Shown: positions 3,201 to 62,960 of the stretch, one piece after another
Numbering within the stretch: the first letter of the stretch is position 1
How the letters are laid out: each line of letters starts with the position of its first letter
Assembly: GCA_024734495.1 (NCBI GenBank)
Contig: JALMQS010000153.1
Coordinates: 14,288,299-14,352,298, forward strand
Direction: 5' to 3'
DNA length: 64,000 nucleotides
Source: Forficula auricularia
Lineage: Eukaryota > Arthropoda > Insecta > Dermaptera > Forficulidae
The notes under the pieces: generated by a model
Told to the model about the DNA's origin: nothing
Seen by the model: the letters and a program-made list of their open reading frames with translations, nothing else
Database searches by the model: none
Made by a program: the position numbers and the translations under genes

Positions 3201-6200
3201 GCAGTTGTTTCGTAATCGAATGCTCGTCGACAAGGATAACAAAGGAGGTTTCATTTGTTATGTTCAAAGTAGTACATATGAGAAAAAAACTCGAACAGAT
3301 GTCATTACCAAAAATGCTAAATTTTACCTTGTACAGAATACATTAACAGAGGTAAGTTATTATTTATTATTTTATAAATATTCATTTTTTTTTTTTAAGA
3401 GAAGTGAAAGTAAGAGTATTGAGATAATGCAAAAAAGGACAATTTTTTAAAATTTCGCAAAAATGACAAAAAATATTGTTGTTAAAAAAATAAAACGAAA
3501 GGTATTATGCCTACGAAAAAGCTTTTGAATAGTAAATAACGTAAAAATAATTTTTTTAGAGATATTAATTGAACCAGTCATTTCGAAAAGGTCACGAGTC
3601 ACACTTTTTTCAAAATAGATTTTTTGCGCCATTTTATATATATCTGTATGATAAATATTTTTTTTATAAATAAATAAACCTCACAAAAATAATATATGTT
3701 TATTATTTATCTACTTCTATGTTCAATAGCACCCTATACTTTTTTTTATAAAAAACAATTTTTTGTTGATCCTGAAAAGTTTTCATTTATGGACTTGTGC
3801 CCTTTTCGAAATGGCTGGTTCAATTATTATAAGCAGCTGTTTAATAACAGTGTTCATTCGAGCTAAAATCAATTATCCCTCCTAAAGCCCTCTTTGCGAG
3901 AAACACGGAGGTTTCGAACGCTCAGCACCCCTAGGGATATCAAATTGGATAAAAATCGAACCAGCACTTTCGCCAACTCTTTTATCCCTATGTCCTCCAG
4001 GAGACTGGAACTCGCTTCTAGCTTCCGTCTTCCCCGCGACTTATAACCTTCACCTGATTAAGACCCGCACCCACAGATACCTTCGATTCCTACCCAGCCC
4101 ATAAAATCCCCTCTTCTTCTTTTCACGGTGGAGGGCGCAACTCAGGACCTTTAGAGATTCACCTCTTTGGTGTAACTCCTTCTCTCATCAATTTCAATAA
4201 AAACAAAAAAAAAGGGTTAGAAGGATCCACAAATAGATAAGAAACCCCTAAAAAATGCTGGAAGAGTGAGGATAGAGGCTAAAAAAAATACCCAAACGCC
4301 AGTATGTAAATTCAAACAGAAGACAACCTCATTAATTTCCCTTTATTAGGAAATCTGTTATCAGCTGCTGTGTTTTTGGATTCTCAAGCTTCTTATACAT
4401 TTATTAATTTAATACCACTATACAAATCATAGAAAGGGTTCTTGTTTGAAAAATTCAAGTAGTGTGTCATACCAGATTTTTTTTTACTATTACGTTAAAA
4501 AATACAATACTTGACCATACCATGTATGGTAAAGCAAAAAATATGGTGTGACAATTTTTTAAACACGAGCCCTTTCTAGTACACCCAACTCTGTTTTTAC
4601 ACGATCACATTAAAAATAAGTTTCTTTCTTCTAAATTGTTTATTTGTTTTTTCAGCCAATACCTATCGCAATTGTTTTTAAAGCCATGGATATTCGCGCT
4701 GACATTCTAATTATGCAAATGATTGGCACAGAAGAGGACTATTTAAATAAAATGGCACCAAGCATTGAAGAGGCACAAAGACTTAAGATTTATACACCAA
4801 AACAAGCCCTCGCGTAAGTTTCTAATCCATTCAGAAATTGATTCTAAAAATTATATGATACATCGGAGACAACCGAAAGTACCGTTCAAGTGTTCCACAT
4901 ATTTGTTTTAAATACAGGGTGATTCACGGTCGATGGTAGGTTAGACGTTTATGGAAAACAGAACGCAGGATTTTTCTGAAAATTTATCACCTTACATTTT
5001 CTTACCTGTTCTATTAATCTAAAATATTTTCAGCATTTAGATGTTTCGGCTTCCATCGAAAAGTCGTAGCAACTTTACTTTTTTAAATTGAACACCCCAT
5101 ATATTAACACGTTTTTAGAACCTCCCTTTTATTAAAATACTTTATTGTTAAACCTATCTCTATTGGTTTTCGAGATAAAAAATAATTTGTGTTAAATATG
5201 GTCCAAAACATGGCCCTAATTAAACTTAAATAAATTAGTGCTCTCAATTCATTGAAAAGTTTTGTTTTGCCGAGAGTAGCAGAGTTGTTGATTCACAAAG
5301 AGAAACAAGAGGTTGTCCTCTGCTTGATGCAAATAAATAATATATATATACAGATATATCATCTCGATATATATGTGTGTATGCTTATTTGCATCAAGCA
5401 GAGGACAACCTGCTTTGTTTCTCTTTGTGGCTCTCAATTCATGAAAAGTTGATATTTTGGTGGTAGTTTAGACACACCCGAAGTATTTAATTTACCCCGA
5501 AAACACGACTACATATCATAAATTACTTTATTATTAATTAATTTTCTTCCAGAACTTAAGTGACTTGATTTAAATTTTTCATTAAATTGAAGGGTTGGTT
5601 TTGTCACAAAAATAATAAAACAATAATTTTAATAACTATTAGAATTATTTAATTGATTACTATACAGTTTCGGTCACCACTGGTCGACCATCCTCAGTAG
5701 TTCTAAAAATTGAAATGAAACATTTATTTACATTTTTTCTTTTTATAGAGAATTATATAACACAAAATTTTTTTTACAATAATTTGAAATCATACATACA
5801 TCTCGTTCAAGAACCGGAATTTGTCATTTCACATGAAACATTCATTCTTAAATCTTCAATATAGATAGATCACACAATTCATTACAATCACACACACATA
5901 TATACATATATAGCAACAATTTATAAAAACGTTTACTAGTGAACTAGAAACTATTTTGAATTGATGATTATATTAAATACTATTTTCAATTTTATTTTTT
6001 TCTGATTATCTCATTGCATCGTCAATTATTATACAATTAAAAAACCCATTATAAATAATCCATTCCAAAAACACATTATAAGTTAAATTCATTCTTTATT
6101 TTTAATTTCCCATTAATGAAATATCAAAAAAGTAGATATAATACAAGAAATAACGATACAGCATGATGAGACTTTGATTTCATTTGATGTACGAAACCTA

Positions 6201-9200
6201 TTTCCAAGTATTCCGATTGATCTTGTTTATAGGATCATGAAAGAAAGATGGAGTGAGATTGAGAAATATACATATCTGACGGAAAAGCAGTTCATTGAAG
6301 CTATAGGTCTGTGTCTCGACAATTGTTTTTTCAGACATGATAATAACATTTACAAACAATTAAAAGGAGTTCCAATAGGAGGATGTCTCAGTCCCATTAT
6401 TGCGGACTTAGTGATGGATAAAATATATGTTGATGTAATAAAACCAATGAAGTTGAAACTATATATACAATATGTTGATGATAGCCTGGCTATTGTTAAG
6501 AAGAACAGCGTAGACCTTTGTATAGAGGCGCTTAATAGTTTCAATGATAATTTAGATTTCACATATGAAAAAGAATTAAACAATAACATCAGTTTTTTGG
6601 ATATTAAAATTGTCAGAGTTGAGGAACGTTTGAGGACAGACCTGTATGTGAAAGATTCAAAATCAAATAGAATGTTGAACTTTAAATCAGTACAGCCACT
6701 TCAGCATAAGATTAGTTTAATATATGGAGAAATAGGTAGATTGGATAGAATATGTGATGAGAGCTACAGAGACATAAGATTGATTGAGTTACAAAAGAAA
6801 TGTGAAAGCAATGGATATTCGAAACAATTTTTCAATAAAGTTCTAACTAAATATAGAAAAAATAAATTAGTAACGGAAGTGATTAAAAAGGAAGATAAAA
6901 TTATTAAAGGCTCCATCCCATATATTCATGATTTATCTGCGAAAATCTTGAGAATTCTGAATAATAATGACATAAAATTAGTACACAGTGTTGGCAGGCC
7001 ACTCATGAACATATTCAATAATAAGACTCATCTTGAAAAACTTGATAAAATGGGTGTTGTTTATGAGATAGTTTGTGATTCATGTAAAAAAGATAAAAAA
7101 ACACACAAGTATATAGGTGAGACTTCAAGACATTTGAGACAAAGAATTAAAGAACATATTTCATCGATTAATGGAAATAAATTGGTCTCCGCGTTATCCA
7201 TTCATGCTATTGACAACGAGCATACTTTCGATTTTGAAGGAGTAAAAATACTAGATTATGAGAAAAATTGGACCAAGAGAAAAATAAAAGAATCTCTTTA
7301 TATATTGAAGGATATCGATAATTCTGTAAATTTCAAAATGGATTCTGAAAGCATATCAGAATGTTATAGTCTAATTGTGTCATTGTTGTAAAAATATTGA
7401 TTTGATTTGGTGTGTTGATTAAACAAGTATTGATTTTGAAAGAAAAATGTAATAGGAAGATGTATGTTTTTTGATATTTCATTAATAAAAAATTAAAAAT
7501 AAAGAATGAATTTAACTTATAATGTGTTTTTAGAATGGATTATTTATAATGGGTTTTTTAATTGTATAATAATTGACGATGCAATGAGATAATTAGAAAA
7601 AAATAAAATTGAAAATAGTATTTAATATAATCATTAATTCAAAATAGTTTCTAGTTCACTAGTAAACGTTTTTATAAATTGTTGCTATATATGTATATAT
7701 GTGTGTGTGTGATTGTAATGAATTGTGTGATCTATCTATATTGAAGATTTAAGAATGAATGTTTCATGTGAAATGACAAATTCCGGTTCTTGAACGAGAT
7801 GTATGTATGATTTCAAATTATTATAAAAAAAAATTTTGTGTTATATAATTCTCTATAAAAAGAAAAAATGTAAATAAATGTTTCATTTCAATTTTTAGAA
7901 CTACTGAGGATGGTCGACCAGTGGTGACCGAAACTGTATAGTAATCAATTAAATAATTCTAATAGTTATTAAAATTATTGTTTTATTATTTTTGTGACAA
8001 AACCAACCCTTCAATTTAATGAAAAATTTATTATTAATATCTTATTAATATCTAAAATTACTATTATTTCCGCTATTCATAAAAGGGGTCAAAAGTTCGT
8101 TTTTTCAAATGAGACCTCCTGTATATTACTCAATAAATTGAAAGACGTAGAAAAATGCTTTAAGACGATATATCATGTCCCTATACCTAAAACATCAAGT
8201 TTTCTTAATAAAGCCGTTTTTTCGTGAAAAAATACATTTTAATGAATTTAATTTTAACTAACCATGGAAATTTCGAGCTTATAAAAGTTTGTTAACTATT
8301 TATAATAAACTTATAAACAATTTATTGACGGTGTTCAAAAAAATCTCCCAAAATGACCGCAAATATTGATTATTCAAACGAAGTTCTTATGAAATAATTT
8401 ATTTTGTATTTTTAACGTTTTGTGCCATCGACCGTGAATCACCCTGTATATTTAAAGATTTGTGACTATAAATCTAAACATTCAAAACTCTAATTATAAC
8501 TTTTTAAGGCCATCGGAAGTATTCTCTGAATTTAAATTTTACTATTTTAACCCAAGGAAGGGTGGTGGTCTCTTATAATTAAAATCTGTGACTTTTAAAA
8601 TGTGTCCTTTAAGTTCGCTCCAAAAATCATCTTTTCTGCCAAATTACAACTTTTTAAGACGGTCCTATAAATTTTGATTTCAGAACTTAAACGTTATATT
8701 TTCTGACAAATGTCGACCATATTAATGTTTTATTTCATACATTAAAATCTCCAGCCTTCGAAATTTTCTCTTTAACTTCACTTAAGGTAGTTCTTTCACA
8801 AATGCAAAAATTCAAGAAGTCTTTGAAACTTGGAATATAAGTCATTAAAAGCATAATAAACACACTGTTAAAATTTGAAAACGATTTACCACTCCAAGCA
8901 TGAAATAATTGCAATTAAAAATGACATTTTTTACATATGGTAGATAGGGAAAGGGTGGGAAAATGATCATTATTTCATTTTTTTTCATTGAAGGACTTTC
9001 ACCATCTTGATGAAAAACTAATATTTGTTAGAATAATATATTCGGAGTAACTTAAAAAAAAAAATTGAAATTATTTACCACCTAGTTTTAATAAAAAAAA
9101 AAACATATTTGGGCGATTATTTTTAGTGGAGGGGATATAAGATCATTGGCTTGGAAACTATCCAGCAAGTATGTGTGTATCCATATAGAGATTTCGTAGT

Positions 9201-62521: not shown

Positions 62522-62960
62522 AAGTAATTAGACTGGATATTGGGTTCTTGGACTTGAGAAAATAATTAAAAGGTAATTTTTCCAAAAGTTGTAACTTCAT
62601 TTCATCGTATATTTTTCGACTTCTTCAGGCAATTTTTATGACAGATATACTTTGAATGATCGATTTTGTTTGAGATATTTATTTAGTTTGTTTACTACGT
62701 TTTATATTAAGTTTGTTTAAACCTTCTCAATTAATACCTTTTATTTTAAGTTTGTTTAAACCTTGTCAATTATGTCATTGCAAAATCCAGTCTAATGGTT
62801 TCTATATATCTATCATTCTATCTATCAATGAGAAAGCTGATCCTAAAATTGCCTGAAGAAGTCGAAAAATATACAACGAAACGTGTTGCAACTTTTGGAA
62901 AATTAGCTTTTAATTATTTTCTCAAGTCCAAGATCCCAATATCCAGCCTAATTATTTACA
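62522..62960. mobile_element. Foldback with hammerhead-like motifs inside hAT
   Basis: Arms mirror ggatattgggttcttggact, gagaaaataattaaaag and gtatatttttcgacttcttc; loop ~190 bp. Confidence 0.75.
62848..62895 (+). ncRNA. Hammerhead-like motif, right arm (cleavage site altered)
   Basis: CUGAAGA 62853-62859, partly paired stem II (GUCG/CAAC), GAAAC 62878-62882, then ACGUG: the base at the cleavage position is G, which the NUH rule disfavours. The left mirror has GAAAU. Probably inactive. Confidence 0.45.

Follow-up and report, generated by a model that had tools for sequence, protein, structure and literature searches.

Hammerhead-bearing foldbacks in Forficula auricularia as probable 5'-truncated insertions of Penelope-like retroelements

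The window analysed here is a stretch of 64,000 nucleotides of Forficula auricularia (Dermaptera; GenBank assembly GCA_024734495.1, contig JALMQS010000153.1, positions 14,288,299 to 14,352,298 of the forward strand). It contains nine foldbacks with recognisable, often mutated, minimal hammerhead ribozyme motifs, the minus-strand motif lying in the left and the plus-strand motif in the right inverted-repeat arm (Table 1). Inverted repeats are present at every locus listed in an earlier note on this DNA, which was made from the sequence alone. Each foldback is very probably a 5'-truncated insertion of a canonical, endonuclease-bearing Penelope-like element (PLE), several families being represented; a way in which it may have arisen is proposed below. 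The copies keep unusually clear traces of Penelope's copying process.

Minimal type I hammerheads were scanned for as CUGANGA, a stem II of at least 4 bp, GAAA, GUH and a stem I of at least 3 bp. Eight exact motifs were found in the window, all inside the foldbacks, on the minus strand whenever they lie in a left arm and on the plus strand whenever they lie in a right one; with one core mismatch allowed the scanner returned 11. Twenty dinucleotide shuffles of the window contained no exact motif and six one-mismatch motifs in total (mean 0.3). The motif scan thus finds the minimal type I hammerhead that is expected of a PLE. The earlier note had placed a motif in each arm, which holds for 8 of the 18 arms of the nine loci by the exact scan (10 fail) and for 11 with one mismatch; at 45905 the cores read GAAT and GATA, the foldback at 62516 gave no scanner hit in either arm, and a decayed foldback at 1243-1520 showed no hammerhead in a loose motif search. 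Its observation that the stems differ among loci and keep pairing was borne out. Stem II pairs over a mean of 5.1 bp with its own partner and over 2.2 bp when 3' halves are swapped among eight representatives (at least 4 bp in 8/8 versus 11/56), and stem I over 3.1 versus 0.8 bp (at least 3 bp in 5/8 versus 4/56). The representatives were hand-picked, one arm each, two of them from related families; an alignment of the motifs with MAFFT put the 3' strand of stem I badly, and pairing was therefore counted per family by script. Minimal PLE hammerheads are reportedly the subject of Cervera and De la Pena 2014 and of Lunse 2017.

No hammerhead family of Rfam was hit in the window, neither at the gathering score nor among the 56 matches with E ≤ 5, nor by two 66-base stretches searched singly at E ≤ 10, an outcome that the earlier note had named as speaking against its proposal. 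A search of the whole genome with RF00163 gave 0 matches, as it did in 14 control genomes, so that absence is not demonstrated by this search. We read the silence of Rfam as probably reflecting a low sensitivity of its models toward the minimal PLE motif, because this motif is described as being without helix III (PMC7761336). Sub-gathering matches to microRNA families in the window are as expected from long hairpins.

For comparison with the rest of the genome, 30 stretches of 10 kb (300 kb; L001 to L030) were sampled from one contig, making 364 kb together with the window. They gave 30 hits with at most one mismatch, 21 of them exact, spread over 12 stretches, versus no exact and five one-mismatch hits in 1.5 Mb of shuffled sample. 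At the density of exact motifs in this sample (21 per 300 kb, from a single contig), the 1.06-Gb genome may, by rough extrapolation, carry about 70,000 of them.

A relaxed scan (stem I of at least 2 bp, at most one mismatch) gave 14 hits in the window, 12 of which have an inverted copy of the module upstream, i.e. stand head-to-head. The same is true of 25 of the 30 sample hits, belonging to 17 foldbacks; three of these 25 match solely sequence downstream of the motif start, and five also match an inverted copy downstream. The fixed geometry that the earlier note saw in every case thus applies to all exact motifs of the stricter scan and to 12 of the 14 relaxed hits, the hits at 24669 and 51424 being unmirrored (36-nt repeat-like matches 1.2 kb from the latter were discounted). 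Among the other sample hits, L014_519 and L014_1129 have a downstream inverted copy only, L020_5381 and the doubtful motif of L015 have none, and L018_3346 is ambiguous, its sole match being a neighbouring element. Terminal repeats of PLEs (pLTRs) are direct or inverted head-to-head, and the latter arrangement is displayed here. The motif at 51424-51462 adjoins a dispersed palindromic repeat, and L023:1987-2341 contains a mirrored motif with identical stem II. At the centre of the foldback at 51845 (51930-52030), a further 5' half of a hammerhead, the third and a partial one, was seen by eye, as if left by a template jump.

Two families carry the coding sequence that distinguishes PLEs, a reverse transcriptase (RT) with a GIY-YIG endonuclease. 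The region 5571-8030, which the earlier note had called coding-free, holds an open reading frame (ORF) of 423 aa whose RT lies above the Pfam cut-off; the GIY-YIG match lies below it (19.5 vs 22.6 bits), and the protein aligns clearly over both parts with a homologue that passes the cut-off. At E ≤ 0.001 there are 52 homologues, with precomputed RT matches in 28 and GIY-YIG matches in 11; those that are named come from two echinoderms. Since the RT match covers the 205-position model only from position 64 onward, this copy, E5571, is 5'-truncated. The second coding copy, L030:3115-5923, has head-to-head arms of 1266 nt (98.7% identical), a 12-bp target-site duplication (TSD; AATATTATTTTC) and a left tail of 53 nt. 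Its right-arm ORF (390 aa) matches RT and GIY-YIG, both above the Pfam cut-offs, and its left-arm ORF (304 aa), the end of the same ORF, matches GIY-YIG above the cut-off and shows no RT match. The proteins of L030 and E5571 are 27% identical, and therefore two distinct PLE families are present.

The short foldback E44740 is 90-94% identical to both ends of L030, tail included. Its left arm stops at L030 position 5769 and its right arm at 5733, with a 4-nt overlap at the junction. Because it matches both ends and stops within them in this way, the coding-free E44740 is, as judged from this alignment, derived from a coding PLE family by truncation of both arms. The link to Penelope drawn in the earlier note accordingly stands for two families (5571; L030/44740), while the others show no coding copy; we infer that they are PLEs as well.

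Direct repeats of at least 11 bp flank 10 of the 22 foldbacks examined, nine in the window and 13 of the 17 in the sample, with lengths of 11-13 bp and once 19 bp. Within the window, five of nine foldbacks have a repeat of at least 12 bp (12 bp at 5571, 35119, 44740 and 50393; 19 bp at 45905), versus 0.35% of 4000 random placements. The sample gave five of 13 with at least 11 bp (L003, 11; L018:1667, 11; L023:1987, 12; L028, 13; L030, 12), versus 107 of 3000 random placements. When scored from the longest direct repeat of each foldback, nine of the ten copies with a clear TSD have one repeat copy directly at the end of the inverted repeat (-5 to 0 nt) and its partner 24-53 nt farther out, which is the TSD with optional one-sided tail of PLEs. 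The right flanks of 35119 and 51845 have CAGTCCGTCTC in common, and the left flank of 44740 can be aligned with that of L030; as they are common to different copies, the tails are element sequence. Insertion is confirmed by two empty sites in the window. For E50393, another copy of the repeat that was hit (41840-41938) aligns with the joined flanks, and the empty counterpart of the single-armed 24659 insertion lies within 25300-25405 (minus strand). The inserts end beyond the hammerhead, away from its cleavage site.

A stem-loop at the presumed start of reverse transcription, defined as a stem of 5 bp or more closing a loop that contains no more than 10% G and spans the inverted-repeat end, was found in 10 of 13 arms examined. 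In eight of them (5571L, 35119R, 44740L, 45905L, 47117L, 50393L, 51845R and 62516L) we read it as one conserved element, with a stem of 5-8 bp and a loop of 30-46 nt containing 0-7% G; a similar stem at 40755 was noted by eye. The stems of 44740 (AACAGAA/TTCTGTT) and 45905 (AGCAGAA/TTCTGCT) differ in one compensated pair. The statistics are weak, and it is the match to the anole element that suggests a reverse-transcription start here: there, an AC-rich stem-loop is the place where reverse transcription begins, and the tail corresponds to the sequence that separates two start sites (PMC11167929).

Both arms of E35119 contain the same 130-nt GT-AG intron. The element is 92-98% identical to copies in L003 and L006 from the hammerhead to about +160; upstream, 130 nt are unique to E35119 and sit exactly between CCCTTTGAA and ACCCTGAAG. 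The intron is exactly missing from both arms of L003 and from the hammerhead arm of L006, and no further full copy of it was found in the 364 kb. The simplest reading is that, in this one family, sense RNA was spliced before reverse transcription, and the exact loss argues for sense RNA as the template. For the Penelope elements of Adineta vaga the choice between sense and antisense template was left open, and an unspliced sense template could not be excluded (PMC3846280). Among 44 hits, 12 have a 3' splice site ahead of the hammerhead, compared with 19 of 186 CUGANGA sites elsewhere (P 0.006, relatedness uncorrected and one of the 12 a doubtful motif); this is no more than suggestive of such a position being general for the hammerheads. 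An RT fragment (PF00078) lies just left of this foldback, at 34822-35094 on the minus strand.

Table 1 Features of the foldbacks and related insertions in the window (HH, hammerhead)
Feature	Position	Strand	Details
PLE copy E5571	5527..8038	+	12-bp TSD TTTATTATTAAT at 5527-5538 and 8027-8038; one-sided tail ~5539-5570
E5571 inverted left arm	5571..6131	-	98% identical to 7467-8030 (564-nt inverted repeat)
HH, exact	5659..5701	-	E5571 left arm
HH, exact	7900..7942	+	E5571 right arm
5'-truncated PLE ORF, 423 aa	6120..7391	+	RT (PF00078), then GIY-YIG endonuclease
Foldback E35119	35108..36444	+	arms 35119-35499 / 36002-36383, 99.5% identical; right-hand tail 36384-36432
E35119 TSD ATTTAAAAAACT	35108-35119, 36433-36444	+	12 bp
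HH, exact	35221..35265	-	E35119 left arm
HH, exact	36237..36281	+	E35119 right arm
130-nt GT-AG intron (GTGAGT...TTTATAG)	36110..36239	+	E35119 right arm; ends 3 nt before CUGA
Same intron	35263..35392	-	E35119 left arm
Foldback E40755	40755..41020		exact HH in left arm, 40765-40801 (-)
Foldback E44740	44682..45058		12-bp TSD AATAATTTATTT at 44682-44693 and 45047-45058; right-arm HH 44941-44983 (+)
Foldback E45905	45905..46100		mutated HH cores; 19-bp exact direct repeat within longer flanking duplication
Foldback E47117	47117..47706		HH 47236-47281 (-, exact) and 47544-47589 (+, one mismatch)
Foldback E50393	50357..50760		HH 50643-50682 (+, one mismatch); 24-nt tail on left
E50393 TSD TCATAAAATATT	50357-50368, 50749-50760		12 bp
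Foldback E51845	51845..52125		HH 51913-51954 (-, one mismatch) and 52018-52059 (+, exact)
Foldback E62516	62516..62963		decayed HH in both arms
Single-armed insertion	24622..24777 (insert 24632-24767)	+	unmirrored; HH from 24669; 10-bp TSD AAAAATGAAA
HH absent from earlier note	51424..51462	+	exact, CTGATGA...GAAACTATAGTC; no mirrored partner
Decayed foldback	1243..1520		weak similarity to 44740/24659 families over 38-46 nt

These features fit the following scheme. The element RNA would end in its 3' region, the minimal hammerhead, mostly some 60-125 nt more and the stem-loop in which reverse transcription starts. The RT/GIY-YIG enzyme of the element would copy this RNA at a staggered break of about 12 bp, both nicked target strands priming cDNA from the same sense RNA. 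The two cDNAs would begin at different start sites in the one stem-loop, leaving a tail at one end only, and both would stop early and become joined by their far ends. The product would be a TSD-flanked palindrome in which both outer ends correspond to the 3' end of the RNA, so that the ribozyme turns its GAAAC side outward in each arm. Priming on two strands would explain the outward RNA 3' ends, the TSD, the unequal arm ends and the unequal truncation points, and it agrees with the anole enzyme, which cuts and extends both strands; the later steps of anole PLE insertion are not yet validated (PMC11167929). The geometry needs no ribozyme cleavage, and ribozyme mutants of the anole system inserted normally in vitro (PMC11167929); a role for cleavage is conceivable. 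As a wider proposition, which we hold tentatively, the head-to-head copy may be the default product of asymmetric two-strand target priming by a PLE enzyme dimer with a stagger of about 12 bp, the sense RNA being sometimes spliced, the cDNAs starting in the loop and beyond it, and the hammerhead opening the exon after the intron in at least one family. If so, splicing may be in competition with the folding of the ribozyme over this stretch, at least in one family.

Several observations weigh against the PLE interpretation or parts of it. No coding parent was found in the 364 kb for the families of 35119, 40755, 47117, 50393, 51845 and 62516, and the spacers of 35119, 62516 and 50393 showed no coding potential by eye nor by tblastn with 53 PLE proteins; L024 and L021 contain two GIY-YIG-like fragments without family assignment. 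In the window, the foldbacks at 40755, 47117, 51845 and 62516 show repeats of merely 5-8 bp, in the sample eight of 13 lack a repeat of at least 11 bp, and 45905 departs from the tail pattern (gaps of 15 and 38 nt). The upstream inverted copy is absent for 24659, 51424, L014_519, L014_1129 and L020_5381. The stem-loop test is loose, 32% of random places passing it as well, and four of the eight arms relied on lack the clear, typically arranged TSD that would settle on which side the tail lies. Finally, the A. vaga study attributes the head-to-head arrangement to self-priming with an antisense template (PMC3846280).

Rather than random truncations, certain families (the 24659/45905 and the 47117 type) could be short non-autonomous elements of defined extent, whose RNA has a constant 5' end and which a PLE mobilises in trans; we consider this possible but doubtful. 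In several copies of the 24659 type (24669, L009_8608, L016_9116 and L006_5131) close homology does not set in until some 70 nt upstream of the cut, 47117 and L018_4614 are homologous through the centre of the palindrome, and neither type has a coding parent in the 364 kb. The copies are few, however, the alignment of some pairs within a type continues beyond this point and across the palindrome (67-75%), and 44740, from a related family, is a truncation of a coding element.

Somewhat less probable is the self-priming (snap-back) route already mentioned, in which a single cDNA snaps back on an antisense template and serves as its own template, yielding a palindrome. It was proposed for A. vaga from palindromes at the inverted junction (PMC3846280), and the near-identity of the arms in the least diverged copies (98-99.5%) would suit it. 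Yet the arms end at different places in nine of the ten copies with a clear TSD, as predicted by independent starts and not by snap-back, and the exact loss of a GT-AG intron on the hammerhead strand requires sense RNA at some stage.

The earlier note had also called the elements retrozyme-like. Here the hammerheads would release small circular RNAs that are later reverse transcribed, which we regard as very unlikely, even though the motifs are of minimal type I and short coding-free copies exist. Retrozymes have two hammerheads in the same orientation (PMC7761336), whereas none of the 12 mirrored hits in the window is accompanied, within 3 kb, by a same-strand copy that spans the motif. The sample yielded such copies for 8 of 30 hits (e.g. 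L014 519 and 1438, L009; at L023 5147 the copy lies 94 nt upstream) and some same-strand match of at least 28 nt for 14 of 30. Within L014 500-1500, two same-strand hammerheads of the 40755 type stand 919 bp apart with a motif of the 5571 type between them on the opposite strand. As the hits are mostly inverted pairs, a transcript would contain one sense motif and its complement; at one locus, 51845, the RNA folds as a single 281-nt hairpin (-204.9 kcal/mol, shuffles -61.6, z -30.6) in which the motif is buried. Moreover, TSD, tail and RT/endonuclease fit a PLE, and the inserts do not end at the cleavage site. Foldback DNA transposons resembling miniature inverted-repeat transposable elements and carrying hammerhead sequence by chance are scarcely credible: inverted repeats, TSDs and the hammerhead-free palindromes of the window would suit them, but they have no RNA intermediate, in conflict with the spliced copies of one family, the RT/endonuclease sequence in two copies, the one-sided tails, the 5' truncation and a single-armed insertion with TSD.

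Around the foldbacks, the only host gene placed consists of two exons (26186-26497 and 29722-30096, plus strand) of an RNA polymerase second-largest subunit (PF00562), presumably that of RNA polymerase III; the intron-dwelling position that the earlier note gave the elements is putative. Collinear blocks, 72-91% identical, between 3149-18200 and 52749-64000 suggest a local duplication, the second copy having just 38 bases where the first has 4893-8446 with the 5571 element. Inverted repeats surround an ORF at 39100-39991, which has no Pfam match and resembles a remnant of a Tc1/mariner transposase. A protein search with a LINE-like ORF returned 11 hits, ten of them unnamed and one, at 49% identity, from the beetle Diabrotica. 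A dispersed repeat family (CTGCTTGATGCAAATAA) occurs at 5294-5429, 46163-46345, 51466-51560 and 1789-1889, the first two copies being palindromic, and no hammerhead was noticed in it. In the sample, L006 is occupied over nearly its whole length (339-9839) by a large imperfect inverted duplication (69-73%).

Retrozymes, including the metazoan ones, are likewise non-coding and hammerhead-bearing, but their units are bounded by same-strand hammerheads giving circular RNA (PMC7761336, PMC7229834), in contrast to the mostly inverted pairs here. The minimal PLE hammerhead is already published (PMC7761336, PMC6155905, citing Cervera and De la Pena 2014); like the motifs described here, it is of type I, has a helix III that is very short or absent and is widespread in non-coding animal DNA, and no departure from our motifs was seen at the sequence level. 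Canonical GIY-YIG-bearing PLEs such as Pen2a of A. vaga (PMC3846280) and PAc of Anolis (PMC11167929) have the same order of RT and GIY-YIG, a head-to-head inverted terminal copy, an optional tail on one terminus, a TSD, 5' truncation, introns, a minimal hammerhead near the 3' terminus and an end at a stem-loop downstream of it. Head-to-head inverted pLTRs, one-sided tails, TSDs and 5' truncation are all published for Penelope (PMC3846280, PMC8969392, PMC11167929), as are its introns (PMC3846280, PMC8969392), so that the view of the earlier note, that a class with this geometry had not been described, cannot be maintained. Differences lie in the clear TSDs, which measure 11-13 bp (once 19) here and 8-10 bp in those A. 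vaga examples that were seen (PMC3846280), and in the presence here of a family with spliced as well as unspliced copies. The ORF of PAc begins within stem II of the hammerhead (PMC11167929). A literature search that lacked some key papers turned up no earlier description of a hammerhead directly next to a 3' splice site, nor of a regular restriction of the tail to exactly one end. The foldbacks are thus 5'-truncated PLEs in a known arrangement with a known ribozyme, a known class whose structure is informative. The insertion route of Penelope, the reason for head-to-head copies and the choice of sense or antisense template are open questions (PMC3846280, PMC11167929), and the intron-bearing and spliced copies, together with the unequal arm ends, make them testable by sequence comparison.

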